DNA from: Bacteroidota bacterium
GTDB taxonomy: Bacteria; Bacteroidota; Ignavibacteria; Kryptoniales; JAKASW01
Direction of reading: 5' to 3'
Assembly (NCBI GenBank): GCA_021794075.1
Contig: JAJYRM010000003.1
Location: 27,382 to 91,381, forward strand
Length of the DNA stretch: 64,000 nt
Of this stretch, positions 1,809-43,433 are shown piece by piece. The translations under genes and the position numbers were made by a program. Below the pieces are notes generated by a model, which was not told the origin of the DNA, did not search any database, and worked only from the letters and a program-made list of their open reading frames with translations. Position 1 is the first letter of the stretch, and each line of letters begins with the position of its first letter.

Positions 1809-3090
1809 TTTTTTCACGACACTCCTTGGGGCGCTGTTCGTTCTTTCGGTGATATTTATATGGTTCATGATCGCTTATCAGCTCGTCCTGACGATAGCCG
1901 GCTTCTTTCACAACTGGGCGTCTGCCAAGGAAAAACTAGCTATCGACAACATGACTCATTTCGAAAGCCCGCGAGTCTGTATCCTCATCCCCGCTCACAA
2001 CGAAGAGACGGTCATCCAGAGAACCTTGGACGCAATGGTGAAGTTGGATTACCCGGCTGACAAGCTGGAGATCCTAGTCATCAACGATGGCTCTTCGGAC
2101 AGGACGGGGGAGATAGTCGAGTCGATGTCGAAACAGGACCGAAGGGTTCGATGCTACAACGTGCCCGAAGGCGAAGGGGGTAAGGGGAAATCACGAGCGC
2201 TGAACCTTGGCTTGAAGCAAACCGATGCCGAGGTGATAGCTGTTTATGACGCAGACAACCAGCCACTTCCTGACGCGTTGAAATACCTTGTTGCGGAACT
2301 TCTCCTGCATCCTGATCTCGGCGCCGTGCTCGGTAACTTCAGAACCATTAACAAAGACAGGACCTGGCTCACTCGTTTCGTCAGCATTGAGACGATGAGT
2401 TTTCAGGCGATACTGCAGGCTGGAAGATGGGCGATGTTTAAGGTGGCAACGCTGCCGGGGACGAACTTCGTGATATGGAAGCATCTCGTGGATGATCTCA
2501 ACGGCTGGGACGAGGATGCCATTACAGAAGACTCTGAGTTGAGCATCAGGGTTTACATGAAAGGTTACAAAATCAAATACATACCGTTTGCAGTAACGCT
2601 TGAACAGGAGCCGGAGACGCTTCCGGTTTGGACGAAACAGCGAACCAGATGGGTCCGGGGCAACAACTATGTTGTGACGAAATTCATGAGAGAGATAACG
2701 CAATTCCAAAACAAGTTCCTCGCATTCGAAGTCCTCTATCTACTCTCGCTTTATTACGTGTTCCTCTTTGCAATCGGCGTCAGCGATTTAATATTTTTAT
2801 TGAGCGTCACGCATTTGGTCGCGATTCCGCTTCCGGGTCCGTACACTACTGTTTGGGTACTGGCGGTCGTACTCTTCATCCTGGAAATAATCCTAGTATT
2901 GTCGTATGAGGGAATGGACACGCCGAGGAATTTCTTCCTCGTGTTCCTGATGTATTTCACCTACTGTCAGTTCTGGATATACGTGGTCGGGAGGGCGATC
3001 TATCTTGATTATATAAAGAGGGAGAAGCGCACATGGTCAAAGACGGTGCGCTTTCAACTCGATGATGGCGCGAAAGGAAAGAAGAAGTAA
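1801..3090 (+). CDS. Membrane glycosyltransferase family 2, processive type
   Basis: I chose the ATG at 1801 over the track's 1768 start because it gives a natural N-terminal membrane helix (FFTTLLGALFVLSVIFIWF) and an 8-bp overlap with the upstream stop. The protein is 429 aa. GT-A signatures appear in the usual order: ILIPAHNEE, VINDGSSDRTGE, the DxD-like YDADNQP, GTNFVIWK, the TED motif (DAITEDSELS) and QRTRWVRG, the QxxRW motif of processive beta-glycan synthases. Two to three further membrane helices follow near the C-terminus (LYLLSLYYVFLFAIG, VWVLAVVLFILEIIL). This layout matches PgaC/IcaA and other BcsA-like synthases that polymerise and export a polysaccharide from nucleotide sugars at the inner membrane. 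The donor sugar cannot be told from the sequence. Its partner is the overlapping TIM-barrel gene. Confidence 0.88.
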   Translation: MYDFFTTLLGALFVLSVIFIWFMIAYQLVLTIAGFFHNWASAKEKLAIDNMTHFESPRVCILIPAHNEETVIQRTLDAMVKLDYPADKLEILVINDGSSDRTGEIVESMSKQDRRVRCYNVPEGEGGKGKSRALNLGLKQTDAEVIAVYDADNQPLPDALKYLVAELLLHPDLGAVLGNFRTINKDRTWLTRFVSIETMSFQAILQAGRWAMFKVATLPGTNFVIWKHLVDDLNGWDEDAITEDSELSIRVYMKGYKIKYIPFAVTLEQEPETLPVWTKQRTRWVRGNNYVVTKFMREITQFQNKFLAFEVLYLLSLYYVFLFAIGVSDLIFLLSVTHLVAIPLPGPYTTVWVLAVVLFILEIILVLSYEGMDTPRNFFLVFLMYFTYCQFWIYVVGRAIYLDYIKREKRTWSKTVRFQLDDGAKGKKK

Positions 3091-3095
3091 AACTG

Positions 3096-3506
3096 CTACG
3101 AGCGCTGTGTCTGGCAGGCAGGGCATATCCCGTAGAAGTCGATCCTTAAGTCCTGAACGACATATCCACGCGGAAGTTTAAAGTCGGGCGTGACCCTTGC
3201 CTCATCTATATCGAATATCCCTTTGCAGGATTTGCAGATGAAATGGAAGTGCTCCTCTTTGTTCGCGTCGAACCTCAGTTGTCCATCGCATATCACCTCG
3301 CTGATTTCACCCGACTCAGCGAGAAGGTTAAGGTTCCTGTAGACCGTCGCAAGGCTGATGTTTGGAAGCTCCTTGCGTACCTCGTGAAAAACCCAGTCGG
3401 CAGTGGGATGCGACTTGGTGGAGCGGACTATGTCCAGCACCTTTTCCCTCTGCCTGCTCCGCTTCCTTCGGAGGGATCCTTCGGATTGTTGAGTGTCGTT
3501 CAGCAT
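3096..3506 (-). CDS. perR: Fur-family repressor, probably PerR
   Basis: This 136-aa protein has the Fur layout: a winged helix (TADWVFHEVRKELPNISLATVYRNLNLL) and a C-terminal dimerisation and metal domain with two CxxC pairs (CKSC and CPAC) for the structural zinc. The regulatory site reads RFDANKEEHFHFIC and GIFDIDE. Asp, rather than Glu, in the second motif fits PerR better than Fur. PerR-type proteins release DNA when peroxide oxidises their iron-ligating histidines. It is the last gene of a minus-strand cluster with DUF3501, an Fe-S oxidoreductase and rubrerythrin, 30 bp downstream of the DUF3501 stop. Autoregulation through the palindrome at the rubrerythrin promoter is a reasonable inference. 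A Fur or Zur role is less likely given these neighbours. Confidence 0.85.
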   Translation of the reverse strand: MLNDTQQSEGSLRRKRSRQREKVLDIVRSTKSHPTADWVFHEVRKELPNISLATVYRNLNLLAESGEISEVICDGQLRFDANKEEHFHFICKSCKGIFDIDEARVTPDFKLPRGYVVQDLRIDFYGICPACQTQRS

Positions 3507-31075: not shown

Positions 31076-32143
31076 TTAAAGAGCGTTCTCAACCATACGG
31101 CCCATCTCTTCAGTAGAGAGGACGTTCTGGCCAGCGGTGGCGATGTCAGCGGTGCGGTATCCTTCGCCGAGGACTTTTTCGACGGCGTGGAATATCTTTC
31201 TCGACAGTTCTTTCTGCTTCAGTGAATACTCCAAAAGCATCGCCGCTGAGAGAATGCTGGCTATTGGGTTCGCGAGTCCTTTGCCCGCGATGTCTGGCGC
31301 GCTGCCATGTACCGGTTCATACAGTGCGTGTTCCTCGCCGACGCTCGCCGAGGGAAGCATGCCTATCGAGCCGGTAAGCATCGAAGCTTCATCACTCAAT
31401 ATATCGCCGAACATATTCTCTGTCAGGATGACGTCGAAGTTCTTTGGGTTTCTCACAAGCTGCATCGACGCGTTATCTACGTACATGTGATCGAGCTGAA
31501 TGTCAGGGTAATCTTTCTTCTGCATCCCGCTCACGACTTCGCGCCATAACATGGAGGTGTGAAGGATGTTTGCCTTATCGACGGATGTGACTTTCTTTTT
31601 CCTGGTCTTTGCCAGCTTGAAGGCTGTGTGGGCTATGCGTTCGATCTCAGGGACTGTATAGGTCATCGTGTTGATACCGCGCCGAGTGCCGTTTTCTTCA
31701 ACTATGCCCGCGGGTCTTCCGAAATAGATGCCGCCGGTCAACTCTCTGATCACGACGATGTCGATCCCTTTCACCACTTCGGGCTTAAGCGACGAAGCGT
31801 TCAATAGGGCGTCGAATAGGATTGCCGGCCTGATGTTAGCGTAAAGCTCCAGCCCTTTTCGCAGGCCAAGCAGAGCCTGCTCCGGCTTCATCTCATAGGG
31901 AAGTGTGTCCCATTTCGGACCGCCGACAGCCCCGAGAAGCACCGCATCGCTTGCAAGCGCCGCCTTTAACGTCGCTTCGGGAAGGGGTTTGCCGTCGGTG
32001 TCGATTGCGATCCCTCCGGCCCTCAGTTCTGTGAATTCAAATTGTTCATTTAGAATCTGTGACGCTTTCTTCAGTATTCTTACGGCCTGCGACGTAACTT
32101 CTGTTCCGATGCCGTCTCCAGGAATAACTGCGATCTTAAACAT
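31076..32143 (-). CDS. leuB: 3-isopropylmalate dehydrogenase
   Basis: A 355-aa protein of standard length. Motifs include [13 protein letters not shown] at the N-terminus, GAVGGPKWD, the substrate arginine region [10 protein letters not shown], and the metal/NAD region [21 protein letters not shown] with [14 protein letters not shown]. It oxidises and decarboxylates 3-isopropylmalate to 2-ketoisocaproate precursor with NAD. With citramalate-derived erythro-3-methylmalate it can also give 2-ketobutyrate for isoleucine. Its start overlaps the leuD stop by 8 bp. It is the last gene of the operon. Confidence 0.97.
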
Positions 32144-32720
32144 TTGCCTCCGCCTTCGGTTTGATCATGCCGATCTTGCGGGCGTAAGCGAAGAGACCTC
32201 CTGCATTTATTATGTCTGCCGCGTCGCCAAGCGGACGAAGCTCAAAAGTCTTGCCGGTGGTTTTGTTCGTGATCTTGTTCGCGTCAAGTTCTATTTCCAC
32301 CTTATCACCGGTTGAAAACGATTTAAAGATATTCTCCACTGATTCGAGAGGCTTTAGGAAGCCGCCGTCGACGGAGTTGCGGTAGAATATCCGCGCGTAT
32401 GTTTGCGCGATGACCGCCTTCACGCCTGCGATTTGGAGAGCGAGCGGCGCGTGTTCTCTCGAAGATCCGCAACCGAAGTTTTTTCCTCCGACAATGATGG
32501 GGAATTCAGATTCGAACTCGCCTTCCTTGACGAATTTCACGCCGCCTTTTGGAAGGCCTGATTTGTCCTCGGGTACTCCGCTCATCGCGTATTTCCCGTA
32601 CAGCTTGCGTTCCTCCGGGGAATGCGTGTCGTAGACCAAATGTTTTGCCGGTATGATCTGATCCGTGTCCACGTTATCGCCGACAACGTAGACAGTACCG
32701 GTTATTTTATTCTGTGACAT
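32136..32720 (-). CDS. leuD: 3-isopropylmalate dehydratase small subunit
   Basis: A 194-aa protein with the swivelling-domain pattern of aconitase small subunits: [19 protein letters not shown], the active-site loop [14 protein letters not shown], and [14 protein letters not shown]. It pairs with LeuC to isomerise 2-isopropylmalate to 3-isopropylmalate, and with citramalate to give 3-methylmalate. It is slightly longer than the 160-170 aa of the archaeal-type partners. It lies 66 bp after leuC and overlaps leuB. Confidence 0.95.
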
Positions 32721-32786: not shown

Positions 32787-34085
32787 CTACGCGAGGTACT
32801 TCCGCGGATCCGTGATTTTTCCGGTCAGCGCCGTAGCGGCAGCTGTCAACGGAGATGCGAGATAAACTTGTCCTTTCTTCGACCCCATTCTTCCGGGGAA
32901 GTTGCGGTTCGTAGTTGAAACGCATATCTCCTCACCGTTTATCCGGCCGAAGGTGTCTTCTGGTCCGCCAAGGCAGGCTCCGCAGCTTGCGTGGCCTATC
33001 CTGCATCCGGCTTCCTTGAAGATTTGAAGAAGAGTCTTGCCGCCGATCTTTTCTTTCTCCAGACCTTTTTCAACGTCGGTTGTAGCGGGGACGATAAAAG
33101 TGTCGACCGCGGTCTTCCTTCCGTTGAGAATCTTCGCCGCGGCCTGAAAGTCCACGAGCTTTCCGCCTGTGCATGAGCCGATATAGACTCTGTCAACTTT
33201 GACATCGGAAAGTTTCTCTGCTGCCTCGACATTTTCCGGGGAATGCGGCTTCGCGACGAGCGGGACGATTTTTGACGCATCGTATTTCAGCTCAGACGCG
33301 AACTTTGCGTCTGAATCGTTCTGCACCGGCTTATAGGGCTTGTTGCTTCTCGCCTTGACGTATCTTTCAGTCTCCTCGTCAGGGGCGATGACGCCGTTCT
33401 TTCCGCCTGCCTCGATCACCATATTGCAGAGTGTCATTCGTTCTTCAATGTTCAGACTGTGAACAGCCTCGCCGGCGAATTCCATCGCGGCGTACGAGGC
33501 GCCGTCAACTCCGATGTCTCCGATGATTCTCAGTATAAGGTCCTTTGCCATCAAATAGTCGGGCAACTTGCCGTTGAAGACGAATCGCATAGTCTGCGGG
33601 ACCTTGACCCACAGCTTGCCCGTGCCGAGAATGAATGCGGCATCGGTGTTGCCGATGCCAGTCGCAAACTCGCCGAACGCTCCCGCCGTGCAGGTATGCG
33701 AGTCCGTGCCGAAAAGGACTTCGCCCGGTCTCGTGTAGCCCTCTTCGGGGAGCGCCACGTGACACACGCCCTTGTAGTCGGGAGTACCTACGTCATAGAA
33801 GTTCTCTATCTGCTGGTCCTTCACGAAGTCTCTGAGGAAAACCACGTTGCGTTTCGCGTGCTGGTCTTCGGTGAAAATATAGTGATCCGGGATCACAACG
33901 ACTTTGTTCCGATCCCATATCTTTGCGTCCGCTCCGAATTCCTTCCTGAATATCGAGATAGTGCCCGGCCCGGTGACGTCGTGAGTCATGAGGACGTCGA
34001 CGTCGATCCATACGTTCTCGCCCGGCACAACCTTATCCTTTCCAGAATGGCTGGCAAGTATCTTTTCGGTGATTGTCATTCCCAT
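32787..34085 (-). CDS. leuC: 3-isopropylmalate dehydratase large subunit (HacA-type)
   Basis: A 432-aa member of the shorter LeuC/HacA class (about 420 aa, against 465 for E. coli LeuC). The [4Fe-4S] cysteines are in GSCTGGK and GHASCGACLGG, and the substrate region includes FGTDSHTCTAGAFGEFATGIG. The labile cluster makes it oxygen sensitive, which is worth noting beside the ferritin-like protein in the same operon. It forms the isopropylmalate isomerase with LeuD. The first or third codon (both ATG) could be the start; no strong ribosome site separates them. Confidence 0.96.
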   Translation of the reverse strand: MGMTITEKILASHSGKDKVVPGENVWIDVDVLMTHDVTGPGTISIFRKEFGADAKIWDRNKVVVIPDHYIFTEDQHAKRNVVFLRDFVKDQQIENFYDVGTPDYKGVCHVALPEEGYTRPGEVLFGTDSHTCTAGAFGEFATGIGNTDAAFILGTGKLWVKVPQTMRFVFNGKLPDYLMAKDLILRIIGDIGVDGASYAAMEFAGEAVHSLNIEERMTLCNMVIEAGGKNGVIAPDEETERYVKARSNKPYKPVQNDSDAKFASELKYDASKIVPLVAKPHSPENVEAAEKLSDVKVDRVYIGSCTGGKLVDFQAAAKILNGRKTAVDTFIVPATTDVEKGLEKEKIGGKTLLQIFKEAGCRIGHASCGACLGGPEDTFGRINGEEICVSTTNRNFPGRMGSKKGQVYLASPLTAAATALTGKITDPRKYLA

Positions 34086-34162: not shown

Positions 34163-35722
34163 TTACACGGCGTTCGCTTGTTTCTTGATGGCGGGGTCTT
34201 CCGCCGACTTTGCTGATTTTGCTGAGATTGCCCGGTTAACTGCCTGTAAGTACGCCTCGACACTTCCCGTTACGATGTCCGTGCTTGCGGCGTGGCCTGT
34301 GAATATCACATCGTTGAAGATGACCTTAACGACTACTTCTCCGACAGCGTCTCCGCCCCACGTAACCGACTTGATGTTGTAGTCGGTAAGTTGTCCGTTC
34401 ATCTTGGTAATTCTCTCGATGGCGTTGTAAGCCGCGTCGACGGGGCCGTCTCCGGTCGCGGAGTCGACGAAAGTCTCTTTGCCGTCGCTCAACTCGACTA
34501 CCGCCGTCGATTTCACTCCGGTGCCGGTCATCACCTGCAAGCTCGACAGCGTGAAGCTGGTCTCGTCGTTATCGAACTTGTTATTCAAGATGGCCACCAG
34601 GTCCTCGTCGAGGATCTCTTTCTTCTTGTCAGCGAGCTGCGTGAACTCGGTGTAAACGTTGTTGAGCTCTTCCGGATTCAATGAGTAGCCAAGCTCCTCA
34701 AACCTCTTCTTGAGAGCATGTCTTCCTGAATGCTTACCGAGAACCAGCGTCGAATGTTTTATGCCGACAGATTCCGGAGTCATAATCTCGTATGTCATCC
34801 TGCTCTTTATGATGCCGTCCTGATGGATCCCGGCCTCGTGGGAGAAGGCGTTTGCTCCGACTATCGCTTTATTTCGCTGTACCATCATCCCCGTGAGAGT
34901 CGAGAGGAGGCGGCTTGATTTGTAAATCTCTTCAGCTTTCACGTCGGTATGAAAGGGGAGAGCGTCCGGACGCGTCTTAAGCGCCATGACAAATTCTTCC
35001 AGCGACGCGTTTCCGGCGCGTTCGCCGATGCCGTTGATGGTGCATTCAATCTGTCTCGCTCCATTCACAACGGCAGCGATGGAATTGGACACAGCGAGGC
35101 CGAGGTCGTTATGGCAGTGAGTGCTGAGAACTGCCTTCCCGATGTTCTTAACGCGACCTCGTATGATACTGATCATCGTGCCGTAGTCTTGCGGCAGCGC
35201 GTATCCAACGGTGTCGGGGAGATTGATTGTCGTAGCGCCGGCATTGATGACTGCCTCAATTATCTGGCAGAGATAGTCGATGTCGCTTCTGCTCGCGTCT
35301 TCGCAGCTGAACTCGATGTCGTTAGTGAGCTTCTTAGCATAAGCTACGGCGTTGATCGATTGTTCGAGGACCTGCTCGCGTGTCTTGTTGAGCTTGTGCT
35401 TGAGATGGATGTCGCTCGTCGCTATGAATACATGGATGCGCGGCTTGGCGGCGTACTGCAGCGCCTCGAAGGCGCGGTCTATGTCGAGAGTCGTTGCCCT
35501 GCAAAGGCCCGCGATTGTGCAGCCCTTGATGGTTTTCGAAATTTCGCGGACCGCCTCAAAGTCCCCGTCCGATGCAATAGGAAAACCAGCCTCTATGATG
35601 TCAACGTTGAGGGCCTCAAGCTGTCTCGCCATCTTCATCTTCTCTTGCGTGTTCATGCTGCATCCGGGGGATTGCTCGCCGTCTCGCAGCGTGGTGTCGA
35701 AAATATATATCTTGTCGCTCAT
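34163..35722 (-). CDS. leuA: 2-isopropylmalate synthase
   Basis: A 519-aa enzyme of full length. The catalytic barrel starts with [18 protein letters not shown], followed by [13 protein letters not shown] with metal histidines and [15 protein letters not shown]; the bridging region is [13 protein letters not shown]. The C-terminal regulatory domain ([13 protein letters not shown] through [14 protein letters not shown]) is present, so leucine feedback inhibition is expected. It condenses acetyl-CoA with 2-ketoisovalerate. It lies 19 bp downstream of the small ferritin-like gene. Confidence 0.97.
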
Positions 35723-37733: not shown

Positions 37734-38738
<1,005 letters not shown>

Positions 38739-38986: not shown

Positions 38987-39478
38987 TTATACTGTTCCTT
39001 CGAATTCCCTCTTGAGTGCTACGCGTCCGGTGCGAGCGATCTCCTTTATGCCGAATGGATCGAGCATCTTTATCATCGCGTCGACTTTCTGTTCGCTTCC
39101 AGTCGCTTCGATTGTAATCGAGCGCGGGCTGATGTCGATTATCTTGGATCGGAATATTTCGGATATCTGCATGAGCTCCGACCTCGAATTCCGGTTCGCG
39201 GCGACTTTTATCAATACCAACTCTCTCTCAACGTAGTTGTCGTAGGTGAGGTCGACCACCTTGGTGACATCGATAAGTTTGTTGAGCTGTTTGATGATTT
39301 GCTCGATCACATCGTCGTCGCCCTTAGAGACGATGGTGACTCTTGCGACCGAATCGTCTTCGCTGGTTCCGACGGAGATGCTGTCGATATTATATCCGCG
39401 GGCGCTGAAAAGTCCCACGATTCTGTTCAATGCGCCGAACTTGTTCTCTACTAGGATGGATATCGTGTGTTTCTTCAC
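38987..39478 (-). CDS. ilvN: Acetolactate synthase regulatory subunit
   Basis: A 163-aa protein with an N-terminal ACT domain (HTISILVENKFGALNRIVGLFSARGYNI) and a C-terminal half (ERELVLIKVAANRNSRSE) matching IlvH/IlvN. It confers valine feedback inhibition and stimulates the catalytic subunit IlvB. Its ATG overlaps the ilvB stop by 4 bp, which ensures balanced synthesis. The length equals that of E. coli IlvH. Confidence 0.96.
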   Translation of the reverse strand: MKKHTISILVENKFGALNRIVGLFSARGYNIDSISVGTSEDDSVARVTIVSKGDDDVIEQIIKQLNKLIDVTKVVDLTYDNYVERELVLIKVAANRNSRSELMQISEIFRSKIIDISPRSITIEATGSEQKVDAMIKMLDPFGIKEIARTGRVALKREFEGTV

Positions 39479-41208
39479 TTCACGGCCTCCGAATGAACCT
39501 TTGCCATTTGAAGCTCCTTGACTGATTTTGGATAGTCGATTATCTGTGCCACGGTACCGCCGCCAGGAATCATCGGGAATACGTTGTCTTCTTTGATGGT
39601 TCTGAAATCGATGATCACAGGGCGGTCGTTTATCTTCATTGCTTCCTTGAGCGTCGGGACGACTTCTTCAGTCTTGTCTGTGATGAATCCCGCACCGCCG
39701 AAGGCCTCGGCCAGTTTCACGAAGTCGGGGTTGTTCCCGAGAGTTACGTGGCTATACCGCTTCTTGTAAAAGAGATCCTGCCACTGTCGTACCATTCCGA
39801 GGTAGCCGTTGTTCAATATCACTATCTTAAGAGGGAGCTTGTTGGAAACAGCGGTCGCCATTTCCTGTATGTTCATCTGGATGCCGCCGTCGCCGTTGAT
39901 GCTGAAGACGGGCCTGTCTTTCACGCCGAAAGCTGCTCCCATCGCGGCCGGGAAGGAAAATCCCATTGTCCCGAGCCCGCCGGATGTTATATTCGACCTG
40001 GGATTGAGGAATTTATAGAACTGGGCGGCCCACATTTGGTTCTGACCGACATCTGTCGTGATTACCGCATTCCCGTTCGTCATTTCATAAATTTTCTCAA
40101 TCACAAATTGGGCTCTTATCTCGCTCCCATTCTCATATCTGAGCGGATGCTCCGCTTTCCAGTCCTCGATCTGTTCCAGCCATTCCTTTGTATCGAGAGT
40201 GTTCACAAGCGGAGTTAGCCTTTCTAAAACGTGACGCACATCGCCGACTATCGGCACGTCCACCTTTACATTCTTGCTTATCGCTGAAGGGTCGATGTCT
40301 ATATGTATTTTCTTTGAGTTGGGCGAGAACATCGCAGGGTTTCCGGTAACACGGTCGTCGAAGCGCGAGCCTATCGCTATCAGGCAGTCGCACTGATCCA
40401 CCGCAATATTCGAGTACCAGGTCCCGTGCATGCCGAGCATTCCCATCGACAATTTGTCGTCGCCGGGGTACGCTCCAAGCCCCATAAGAGTCATTGCCAC
40501 AGGGGCATTGAGCTTTTTCGCGAGGTTGTAAAGTTCGGCTGACGCGTTCGAGTTTATTACACCGCCGCCGACATAAAGTACCGGCTTGCGTGATGCGTTT
40601 ATGATTTCCACAGCTTTGTTTATCTGTCCCATGTGCCCGAAGTAGAACGGGTGATATCCGCGGAGCTTAACCTCCTTCGGATAAAGGAACGCGGCTTTCG
40701 AGGCCATTACGTCTTTGGGCATATCCACGACGACGGGGCCCGGCCTCCCAGTGGAGGCGATATGGAAGGCGGCCTTGATTGTCCATGCCAGCTGCTTTAC
40801 GTCTTTCACGAGGAAATTGTGCTTCGTTATCGATCTGGTGATTCCAATTATATCGGCTTCCTGGAAAGCATCGTTGCCTATCAAATTAGTCGACACCTGA
40901 CCGGTGAAGACGACGAGCGGCACCGAATCCATGTGGGCGTCCGCGATTCCGGTTACGGTATTTGTGGCTCCGGGACCGGAGGTCACGACAACTACTCCGA
41001 CCTTTCCTGTAGCCTTCGCGTATCCTTCAGCGGCATGGACAGCGCCTTGTTCATGGCGAGTCAGTATATGTTTTATGTGCGACATGTCGTGCATCGCATC
41101 ATAGACCCCGATTACCGCTCCACCCGGGTAACCGAAGATGTATTCGACATTTTCTTCGATCAGGCTCTTAACGAATATCTCCGCGCCTGTCATTTCGTTG
41201 GTGCTCAT
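39475..41208 (-). CDS. ilvB: Acetolactate synthase catalytic subunit
   Basis: I place the start at the ATG at 41208 (MSTNEMTGAEIFVKSL), with GGAG 8 nt upstream; the track's 26-residue extension is not protein-like and runs into the leader region. The 577-aa enzyme has EYIFGYPGGAVIGVYDA with the catalytic glutamate region RHEQGAVHAAEGYA, and the thiamine-diphosphate motif GDGGIQMNIQEM...NNGYLGMV. It condenses two pyruvates to acetolactate, or pyruvate with 2-ketobutyrate. It is the first structural gene of the operon, downstream of the proposed leader-peptide attenuator. Confidence 0.96.
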   Translation of the reverse strand: MSTNEMTGAEIFVKSLIEENVEYIFGYPGGAVIGVYDAMHDMSHIKHILTRHEQGAVHAAEGYAKATGKVGVVVVTSGPGATNTVTGIADAHMDSVPLVVFTGQVSTNLIGNDAFQEADIIGITRSITKHNFLVKDVKQLAWTIKAAFHIASTGRPGPVVVDMPKDVMASKAAFLYPKEVKLRGYHPFYFGHMGQINKAVEIINASRKPVLYVGGGVINSNASAELYNLAKKLNAPVAMTLMGLGAYPGDDKLSMGMLGMHGTWYSNIAVDQCDCLIAIGSRFDDRVTGNPAMFSPNSKKIHIDIDPSAISKNVKVDVPIVGDVRHVLERLTPLVNTLDTKEWLEQIEDWKAEHPLRYENGSEIRAQFVIEKIYEMTNGNAVITTDVGQNQMWAAQFYKFLNPRSNITSGGLGTMGFSFPAAMGAAFGVKDRPVFSINGDGGIQMNIQEMATAVSNKLPLKIVILNNGYLGMVRQWQDLFYKKRYSHVTLGNNPDFVKLAEAFGGAGFITDKTEEVVPTLKEAMKINDRPVIIDFRTIKEDNVFPMIPGGGTVAQIIDYPKSVKELQMAKVHSEAVK

Positions 41209-41290: not shown

Positions 41291-41428
41291 TAAAACGGCC
41301 TCAAACGCCTCGGCAAAGCCTTGGGCTTTAGGCTATTCCCGTCGATGTAAATGGATTCTTGTTAGGTTCGCGCTCTCGGGGAATAACCTTCGGCTATTTA
41401 GCTAATAATGCCGAGTAGGATATTCCCC
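41291..41428 (-). promoter_or_regulatory. Candidate ilv-leu attenuator with alternative RNA folds
   Basis: Reading the minus strand I can mark four segments. Segment 1, GGGGAATATCC (41418-41428), lies in the last codons of the leader ORF. Segment 2, GGTTATTCCCC (41378-41388), pairs with it. Segment 3, CGGGAATAGCC (41331-41341), can pair with segment 2 instead. Segment 3 continues into GCCTAAAGCC-CAA-GGCTTT...AGGC (41307-41333), a terminator-like stem followed by T-containing runs up to about 41292. A ribosome stalled on the Leu/Ile codons would block 1:2 and favour 2:3. The U-tract is weaker than in textbook terminators. Confidence 0.6.
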
Positions 41429-41565
41429 TCGCTTAGAAGGAGGAGAACTAGAATGGAAATTAGGGAAAGGAGGCCAAGAAGATTTGAATCGATTGGGTTG
41501 GTTAAGGGCAGCGAAACAGTCTTCGCCGCCATACTAGAGCCATATGTAGGTGCGTTCTCGTTCAT
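41398..41565 (-). CDS. Leu/Ile-rich leader peptide of the ilv-leu operon
   Basis: This 55-codon ORF is below the track's length cut-off. It reads MNENAPTYGSSMAAKT..., and its second half is extremely rich in branched-chain residues (LLGLLSLISILVLLLL, then NILLGIIS and the TAA stop); 18 of the last 28 residues are Leu, Ile or Val, including four consecutive Leu codons. A strong promoter lies directly upstream and the acetolactate synthase gene follows 189 bp after the stop. The stop falls within an RNA hairpin loop. This is the expected form of an attenuation leader that senses charged tRNA-Leu and tRNA-Ile. The ribosome site is weak (AGAAG), and an alternative start at Met12 exists. A small membrane peptide is the other possibility. 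Confidence 0.7.
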   Translation of the reverse strand: MNENAPTYGSSMAAKTVSLPLTNPIDSNLLGLLSLISILVLLLLSEGNILLGIIS

Positions 41566-41579
41566 ATCTTCTTTTATAA

Positions 41580-41608
41580 AGTATACGGAATCGGTTCCTC
41601 GATGTCAA
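41580..41608 (-). promoter_or_regulatory. Promoter of the ilv-leu operon
   Basis: On the minus strand TTGACA (41603-41608) is followed after exactly 17 nt by TATACT (41580-41585), a 6/6 and 5/6 match to sigma-70 boxes. The predicted start leaves only about 8 nt before the leader ATG, so the leader message has a very short 5' end. Confidence 0.7.
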
Positions 41609-41861: not shown

Positions 41862-43433
41862 ATGTACGGGGATAAGAGAAGAATCCTATGGGTTGATGAT
41901 GAGATAGAGCTTCTAAAACCGCATGTCATCTTCCTTCAAGACAAAGGCTTTCACATAGATACCGCGACTAATGGCCAGGATGCAATAGAGCTTGTGAAGC
42001 AGAATCTCCGCGATGAGACTTTCGATCTCATTCTTCTGGATGAGATGATGGCTGGAATGGGCGGTCTAAGCACGCTTGAGGTCATAAAAGAAATCGCACC
42101 TGAAATTCCGGTAGTAATGATAACAAAGAACGAAGCTGAATCGCTTATGGAAGAGGCCATCGGTCAGAAGATAAGCGACTACCTGACGAAACCGGTTAAC
42201 CCGAGCCAGATTCTCATGACCGCAAAAAAAATTATCGATGGTCATAAAATCGAAGGAGAGAGAGTCTCGAGAGACTACGTGTCTGAGTTTAGACAAATCG
42301 CCTCGGACATAGATGCCGACCTCAACTACGAGCAATGGGTAGACATCCACCAGAAGTTGACTTACTGGGAGCTTGAGATCGATGAGCATCCTGAGACCGG
42401 CTTAAAGGAACCTTTGATGGATCAGCGCCGGGCGGCAAACGCGGCATTCGGAAAGTACATCGACGGCGTCTACAAAGATTGGGTCAAGAAGAAAACCGAC
42501 AGGCCGAAGCTTTCGCACGAGGTATTTGAGACTTTCGTGATGCCTAAAATGGTTCCCGGGAAATCCGTCGTGCTTATGGTCATCGACTGCATGCGCCTCG
42601 ATCAATGGCTCATTATGGAAGACTTCCTTCGCGATATGTTTTCAATAACCAAGCAATATTATTACTCCATCCTTCCGACAGCCACGCCGTACTCCAGAAA
42701 TGCCATCTTTAGCGGTCTTCTTCCTCTTGAAATGGAGAAGCGGTTCCCGGAGATCTGGGACAAAGGGAATTCGGATGACGACTCCAGCAGGAACCGCAAT
42801 GAGAAGGAGCTGCTGGCGGATCTTCTTCAGAGAAAACGGCTGCGGGTCGACCCGAAGTATATCAAGATCATCGATCCGGATTTCGGGAAAAATATCGTTT
42901 CGAACATCCCCGGCTTCGCGAAGCAGCCGCTGACTGCCATCGTGGTAAACTTCGTCGATATACTGGCGCACTCCCGTTCGGATTCGGATATTCTTAAGGA
43001 GATAGCTCCGGACGAAAGCGCGTATCGCTCGCTAACCAAGTCGTGGTTCCAGCACTCTTACCTGCTTGATCTGTTCAAAGCGCTTGCGCAGACTGATGCC
43101 ACAGTCATAGTCACGACTGACCACGGAAGCATCAGGAGCATGCGTGGTTCGAAGGTGCTCGGCGACAGGGAAGCGTCGACCAATCTTCGATACAAGTTCG
43201 GCAGGAACCTGAAGTGCGACGACAGGCAGGCCATCTTCGTGAAGAACCCTGAGGACTACATGCTTCCCAGACGCGGCGTGACGATTAATTATATCATCGC
43301 CAAAGAGGACTTCTACTTCGTTTATCCGACTGATTACCATAAATATCTGGAGCAGTACCACGACAGTTTTCAGCATGGGGGAATATCTCTCGAAGAGATG
43401 ATACTTCCGGTTGCGATACTGGACCCTAGGTAA
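41862..43433 (+). CDS. porX: PorX-type response regulator with PglZ domain
   Basis: A 523-aa protein. Residues about 1-125 are a CheY-like receiver: acidic VDDE, phospho-acceptor Asp in DLILLDEMM, conserved Thr region and Lys in SDYLTKPVNP. A helical linker follows, then from about residue 215 a PglZ alkaline-phosphatase-fold domain with VVLMVIDCMRLDQW, TATPYSRNAIFSG, NFVDILAHSRSD and TTDHGS, which carry the metal-binding residues. In Bacteroidota PorX works with the kinase PorY and a sigma factor to control the type IX secretion system, and the PglZ domain cleaves cyclic oligonucleotides. No type IX component is nearby. AGGAG precedes the ATG. Confidence 0.93.
   Translation: MYGDKRRILWVDDEIELLKPHVIFLQDKGFHIDTATNGQDAIELVKQNLRDETFDLILLDEMMAGMGGLSTLEVIKEIAPEIPVVMITKNEAESLMEEAIGQKISDYLTKPVNPSQILMTAKKIIDGHKIEGERVSRDYVSEFRQIASDIDADLNYEQWVDIHQKLTYWELEIDEHPETGLKEPLMDQRRAANAAFGKYIDGVYKDWVKKKTDRPKLSHEVFETFVMPKMVPGKSVVLMVIDCMRLDQWLIMEDFLRDMFSITKQYYYSILPTATPYSRNAIFSGLLPLEMEKRFPEIWDKGNSDDDSSRNRNEKELLADLLQRKRLRVDPKYIKIIDPDFGKNIVSNIPGFAKQPLTAIVVNFVDILAHSRSDSDILKEIAPDESAYRSLTKSWFQHSYLLDLFKALAQTDATVIVTTDHGSIRSMRGSKVLGDREASTNLRYKFGRNLKCDDRQAIFVKNPEDYMLPRRGVTINYIIAKEDFYFVYPTDYHKYLEQYHDSFQHGGISLEEMILPVAILDPR

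Follow-up and report, generated by a model that had tools for sequence, protein, structure and literature searches.

We found that the genes for branched-chain amino acid (BCAA) synthesis in the window, by which we mean the whole 64,000-nucleotide stretch of DNA analyzed, are preceded by a leader-peptide element, and that this ilv-leu operon is very probably controlled by ribosome-mediated attenuation in response to charged tRNA-Leu and tRNA-Ile. The operon lies on the minus strand of a 4.5 Mb genome and begins with ilvB (acetolactate synthase large subunit, 39475-41208, start at 41208, GGAG at 41219-41216). It continues on the same strand with ilvN (38987-39478), ilvC (37734-38726), cimA (citramalate synthase of the isoleucine route, TIGR00977, 35969-37645), leuA (34163-35722), a leuC-type gene for the isopropylmalate dehydratase large subunit (32787-34085), a putative leuD-like small subunit gene whose reading frame was read by eye (32136-32720), and leuB (31076-32143). 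This order therefore covers Ile (by the citramalate route), Val, and Leu, the three amino acids that a first-pass annotation of this DNA had assigned to the operon. The divergent neighbor, at 41862-43433 on the plus strand, encodes PorX, a type IX secretion response regulator.

To follow the element in relatives we used a genus set of 12 sequences: the window, 10 congeneric genomes whose ilvB start is intact, and another in which the leader lies at the end of a contig. The leader was found in all 12 genus genomes in which the ilvB start region is assembled, and in the window it sits between a promoter and the BCAA operon, as expected of an attenuator. The near-consensus promoter noticed earlier consists of the -35 box TTGACA (41603-41608) and the -10 box TATACT (41580-41585) on the minus strand; it matches 11 of 12 consensus positions and is the sole such site within 800 bp. 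Although shuffles of these 800 bp give 1.2 such sites by chance, we consider the promoter confirmed because it is conserved in the genus: all 12 genomes share the same TTGACA and a spacer of exactly 17 nt, and the end of the -10 box lies 12-15 nt upstream of the ATG (14 nt in the window). The predicted transcription start is near 41573.

The leader ORF (MNENAPTYGSSMAAKTVSLPLTNPIDSNLLGLLSLISILVLLLLSEGNILLGIIS) occupies 55 codons at 41398-41565 on the minus strand and ends 189 nt upstream of ilvB. Leu, Ile, or Val account for 19 of its 27 C-terminal residues, and it contains a run of four Leu codons (CTC CTC CTT CTA, 41434-41445), the presumed stall site, 5 nt upstream of the first pairing segment. 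The coordinates, the strand, and the Leu/Ile/Val-rich last half with its Leu run all hold as first described. Leu is present at every position of this run in 12/12 genomes, and its first and second codons are always CTC. Across the genus set the leader varies from 53 to 62 aa while every indel is a multiple of 3, frame and stop are kept, with TAA invariant, and substitutions at run positions fall mostly within L/I/V. The dN/dS ratio (12 genomes) is 0.51 in the N-terminal part, falls to 0.36 in the run, and is lowest, at 0.12, over the last 12 codons. The leader ORF is under codon-level selection, and this selection suggests that it is translated, as an attenuator with a run of cognate codons demands. 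The first-pass annotation had looked to codon-level conservation upstream of ilvB in relatives to test its proposal, and the 12 genomes agree with it.

Three RNA segments follow the Leu run, all read on the minus strand. Segment 1 (GGGGAATATCCTACTCGGC, 41410-41428) lies within the ORF and is near-invariant; segment 2 (GCCGAAGGTTATTCCCC, 41378-41394) begins 3 nt past the stop codon and is invariant in 11 genus members; and segment 3 (GGGAATAGCCT, 41330-41340), complementary to segment 2, is near-invariant in the genus. As had been proposed, segment 2 can pair in two competing ways. The 1:2 hairpin has an energy of about -23 kcal/mol, with z near -4.6 per genome against shuffles and a Stouffer z of -15.9 (n = 12), and the 2:3 duplex ranges from -15 to -24 kcal/mol across the genus. 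A further hairpin, 3:4 (GCCT..AGGC, 41298-41333), would be exclusive with 2:3; it overlaps segment 3 and is present in most genus members (Stouffer z -4.6, 12 genomes), being weak in L008, L009, and L031, and its pairing is retained despite changed sequence in several relatives. In most genus members the 3:4 loop (41315-41309) carries the motif TGCCGAG or a close variant, complementary to CTCGGCA in the leader ORF.

Within the genus, the support for these base pairs is mainly invariance, and invariance alone does not prove pairing. Because segments 1 and 2 are near-invariant there, covariation could come only from other families, and these supplied the compensatory change for which the earlier annotation had asked. 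Across the class, 8 of the 11 pairs of the 2:3 helix show changes on both sides, a number reached in 0 of 500 shuffles. The alignment was hand-anchored, with 26 distinct sequences whose arms were joined by an artificial six-A spacer and with Chlorobiia left out. In it 86.4% of cells pair, compared to only 27-48% in slid registers, but the former value leans towards structure because the register was chosen to fit the pairing. The compensatory counts and a swap test are therefore the stronger evidence. When partners were swapped between sequences, the 2:3 energy went from -23.2 kcal/mol for native partners to -16.7, and that of 1:2 from -19.2 to -14.2. The swap test gave no signal for the segment pairings within the genus, since the sequences are invariant, nor for 1:2 in Chlorobiia. 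Both of the mutually exclusive pairings, 1:2 and 2:3, are under selection, as in an attenuator.

From these features we infer that the ribosome stalls, that the RNA switches, and how expression is turned off; the mechanism would run as follows. Transcription would begin about 8 nt upstream of the leader ORF. When charged tRNA-Leu is scarce (or tRNA-Ile, from the earlier Ile codons), the ribosome would stall on the Ile/Leu run and cover segment 1, leaving segment 2 free to pair with segment 3; the 2:3 duplex would prevent hairpin 3:4, and the operon would be expressed. When BCAAs are plentiful, the ribosome would reach the TAA and depart, 1:2 would form, and segment 3 would pair with segment 4, so that expression halts upstream of ilvB.

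The element extends well beyond the genus. A model of the genus element (R1) matched 12 of 13 genus genomes, the one miss being an 84% complete genome (G012) that also had no congeneric ilvB match, and over 396 genomes of the phylum it gave no match outside the genus. Its wider reach was therefore taken from reading the upstream regions of ilvB and ilvD. A homologous leader precedes ilvB in 16 of 17 readable loci of family f17 and ilvD in 8 of 9 loci of f10; ilvD also has one in f4, in f19, and at one of the two loci of f13. A second leader-bearing class, which we take to be Chlorobiia, has a homologous leader, before ilvB or ilvD, in 9 of 11 readable loci. In each relative's leader the BCAA codon run extends to the stop codon; segment 2 follows, mostly fitting the class-wide consensus RGGTYRNTCCC, and then segment 3; examples of segment 2/segment 3 pairs are GGTCAATCCC/GGGATTGACC, GGTTAACCC/GGGTTAACC, GGTCGATCCCTAA/TTAGGGGTCGACC, and CCGGAGGTTAC/GTAACCTCCGG. 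The upstream regions of ilvB and ilvD held no leader in the order-level family f2 or in the class of G041 (f26), the separate ilvD gene of the genus has no BCAA leader of this type, and no convincing Trp leader was seen at trpE in 12 genus loci.

We also scanned the fetched pieces, taking each intergenic gap of 200 nt or more, for uORFs with at least seven L/I/V among 10 residues within their last 26 codons. Such uORFs occurred in 21 of 121 gaps, of which 19 precede ilvB, ilvD, or ilvE and two do not, an association beyond chance; many of the scanned pieces were centered on ilv genes, and the remaining gaps in those pieces served as the control. In genome G098, two tandem attenuators lie upstream of ilvE (locus L122, G098:C121:26300-35000, minus strand, approximately 2940-3260), with separate Ile-run leaders (MKNTIINIIIIIIVIIG and MYKTNSHIIISIIIIVIIGIIDG), each followed by its own textbook terminator, with T6 and T9, respectively. 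Given the conservation in 12 genomes and the relation to the leaders of green sulfur bacteria, this group probably senses BCAAs by ribosome stalling, as E. coli does.

The sensing half of the element, judged from its sequence, appears to work like that of an ilv/leu attenuator. The OFF step is a different matter. The first-pass annotation had described 3:4 as a terminator-like stem; the hairpin exists, but the U-tract that directly follows the stem in a canonical intrinsic terminator of the ilvL/leuL type is missing in 11 of 12 genus members, where no 8-nt stretch downstream of 3:4 contains more than 5 T (the exception is L011). In contrast, T-rich sequence is found at this position in most Chlorobiia, in G098, and in several members of f17 and f10. 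A GCTRTATCTGARG-like motif downstream of segment 4 is common to the f10 loci.

With the U-tract missing, the OFF step in the genus is not a canonical intrinsic terminator. One quite conceivable alternative, which is a sub-model of attenuation by ribosome stalling and not exclusive with it, is that the same sensor acts through Rho-dependent termination, pausing, or RNA processing. Rho would then be loaded, whenever 2:3 fails to form, on either the G-poor linker that separates segments 2 and 3 or the untranslated RNA past the stop codon. Besides the missing U-tract, this is consistent with an excess of C over G in the linker of every genus member, although the linker is not conserved, and with the presence of rho in the genome. 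Canonical terminators do exist in this genome, but in approximately 335 kb of its own DNA they follow just 6 of 50 convergent gene ends (2.1 in shuffles), a count that depends on crude gene calls. Against a Rho output, most members retain the 3:4 pairing although its sequence has changed, and its mean strength exceeds that in the relatives, which suggests that the hairpin itself matters. With no T-rich stretch in 11 of 12 genus members, few canonical terminators, and Rho present, we do not class the element as a canonical intrinsic-terminator attenuator. The genome also encodes a second Rho-like protein (G000:C70:13026-14066; 409 bits, below the curated cut-off).

Another possibility is that the alternative structures act on translation of ilvB, the effector being a hairpin upstream of its ribosome-binding site. 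An additional hairpin at 41276-41244 on the minus strand, without a U-tract, lies about 36-68 nt upstream of ilvB and is conserved in structure and position but not in sequence (Stouffer z -4.9, 11 genomes), and the untranslated spacer from segment 3 to ilvB is longer in the genus (about 130-178 nt) than in f17 (46-92 nt). We consider translational control unlikely, however, as the alignment shows no conserved pairing of segment 3 or 4 with the ilvB GGAG and the relatives carry T-rich sequence after 3:4 instead.

It could be speculated that the ORF is not a regulatory leader but the gene of a small, functional membrane protein, since its C-terminal 27 residues resemble a transmembrane segment and dN/dS is below 1 throughout. 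This is very improbable: conservation includes third codon positions in the overlap of the ORF with segment 1, in which RNA constraint coincides with the code, other families keep just the BCAA run and its position, and we rejected this reading on the grounds that RNA conservation extends past the stop codon while the N-terminal half is poorly conserved. A metabolite riboswitch, such as the ppGpp-type ilvB riboswitch, that overlaps an ORF by chance would also give a structured and conserved 5' region upstream of ilvB, but we rejected it as scarcely credible because the reading frame and BCAA codons are conserved and no leader, T-box, or riboswitch family of Rfam 15 matched the window at the gathering score. 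On 15 related loci, Rfam gave only two unrelated SAM riboswitches, both in f10 genomes (L118:2850-2966 and L119:2907-3005).

These data suggest that BCAA attenuation by ribosome sensing, best known in gammaproteobacteria and actinobacteria, extends to a deep part of Bacteroidota, with at least eight families carrying a homologous RNA element. They also offer a concrete candidate regulator for study, both in lineages not yet cultured and in green sulfur bacteria that can be grown. The range from a U-tract through T-rich sequence to no U-tract forms a natural series in which to follow an attenuator whose sensor is conserved and whose output changes. We tentatively propose a broader history, in which an ancient homologous BCAA attenuator would be a general means of controlling ilv operons both in this class of Bacteroidota and in Chlorobiia. 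In the Kryptoniota genus to which the window belongs, the intrinsic terminator may have given way to an output that needs no U-tract (Rho or another factor), the ribosome-sensing half remaining frozen. A homologous ilv element across these classes, or its U-tract-free form, was not found described in the literature searched, whose coverage left out one broad 2010 survey.

In E. coli, the ilvGMEDA and leuABCD operons are preceded by leaders (ilvL and leuL) that combine a BCAA-codon-rich leader peptide with alternately pairing segments. The leader of the window is like these enterobacterial leaders in its peptide, its alternate pairing, and its BCAA operon, and we know of no sequence relation between them. 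It differs in that its genus lacks the U-tract, in that a joint ilv-leu operon that includes citramalate synthase is under a single leader, and in that about 8 nt separate the predicted 5' end from its ORF.

The principle of leader-peptide attenuation is known and has already been suggested in the phylum. A 2010 paper stated that such systems were until then demonstrated in no groups other than Proteobacteria and Actinobacteria, and itself added Firmicutes (PMC2965389); attenuation of ilvB by uORFs has since been argued to be common (PMC10272879). The first-pass annotation knew of no description in this kind of FCB bacterium; however, a paper on Flavobacterium psychrophilum gives strong clues for leader-peptide attenuation at amino-acid operons (PMC9723704), and another reports leader-like sORFs in Bacteroides thetaiotaomicron (PMC7366714). 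These suggested leaders belong broadly to the same phylum and share the proposed principle. A description of actinobacterial ilvB leaders notes that codon substitution in S. coelicolor had no effect (PMC1262725), which calls for caution when attenuation is inferred from sequence. The actinobacterial leaders and the Corynebacterium ilvB-II motif resemble the window element in having an I/L/V-rich uORF before ilvB(NC) and competing hairpins (PMC1262725, PMC10272879, PMC11857589). The terminator stem of Corynebacterium leads into a run of uridines (PMC10272879), and the window element differs from these leaders in coming from another phylum and in having no Rfam match.
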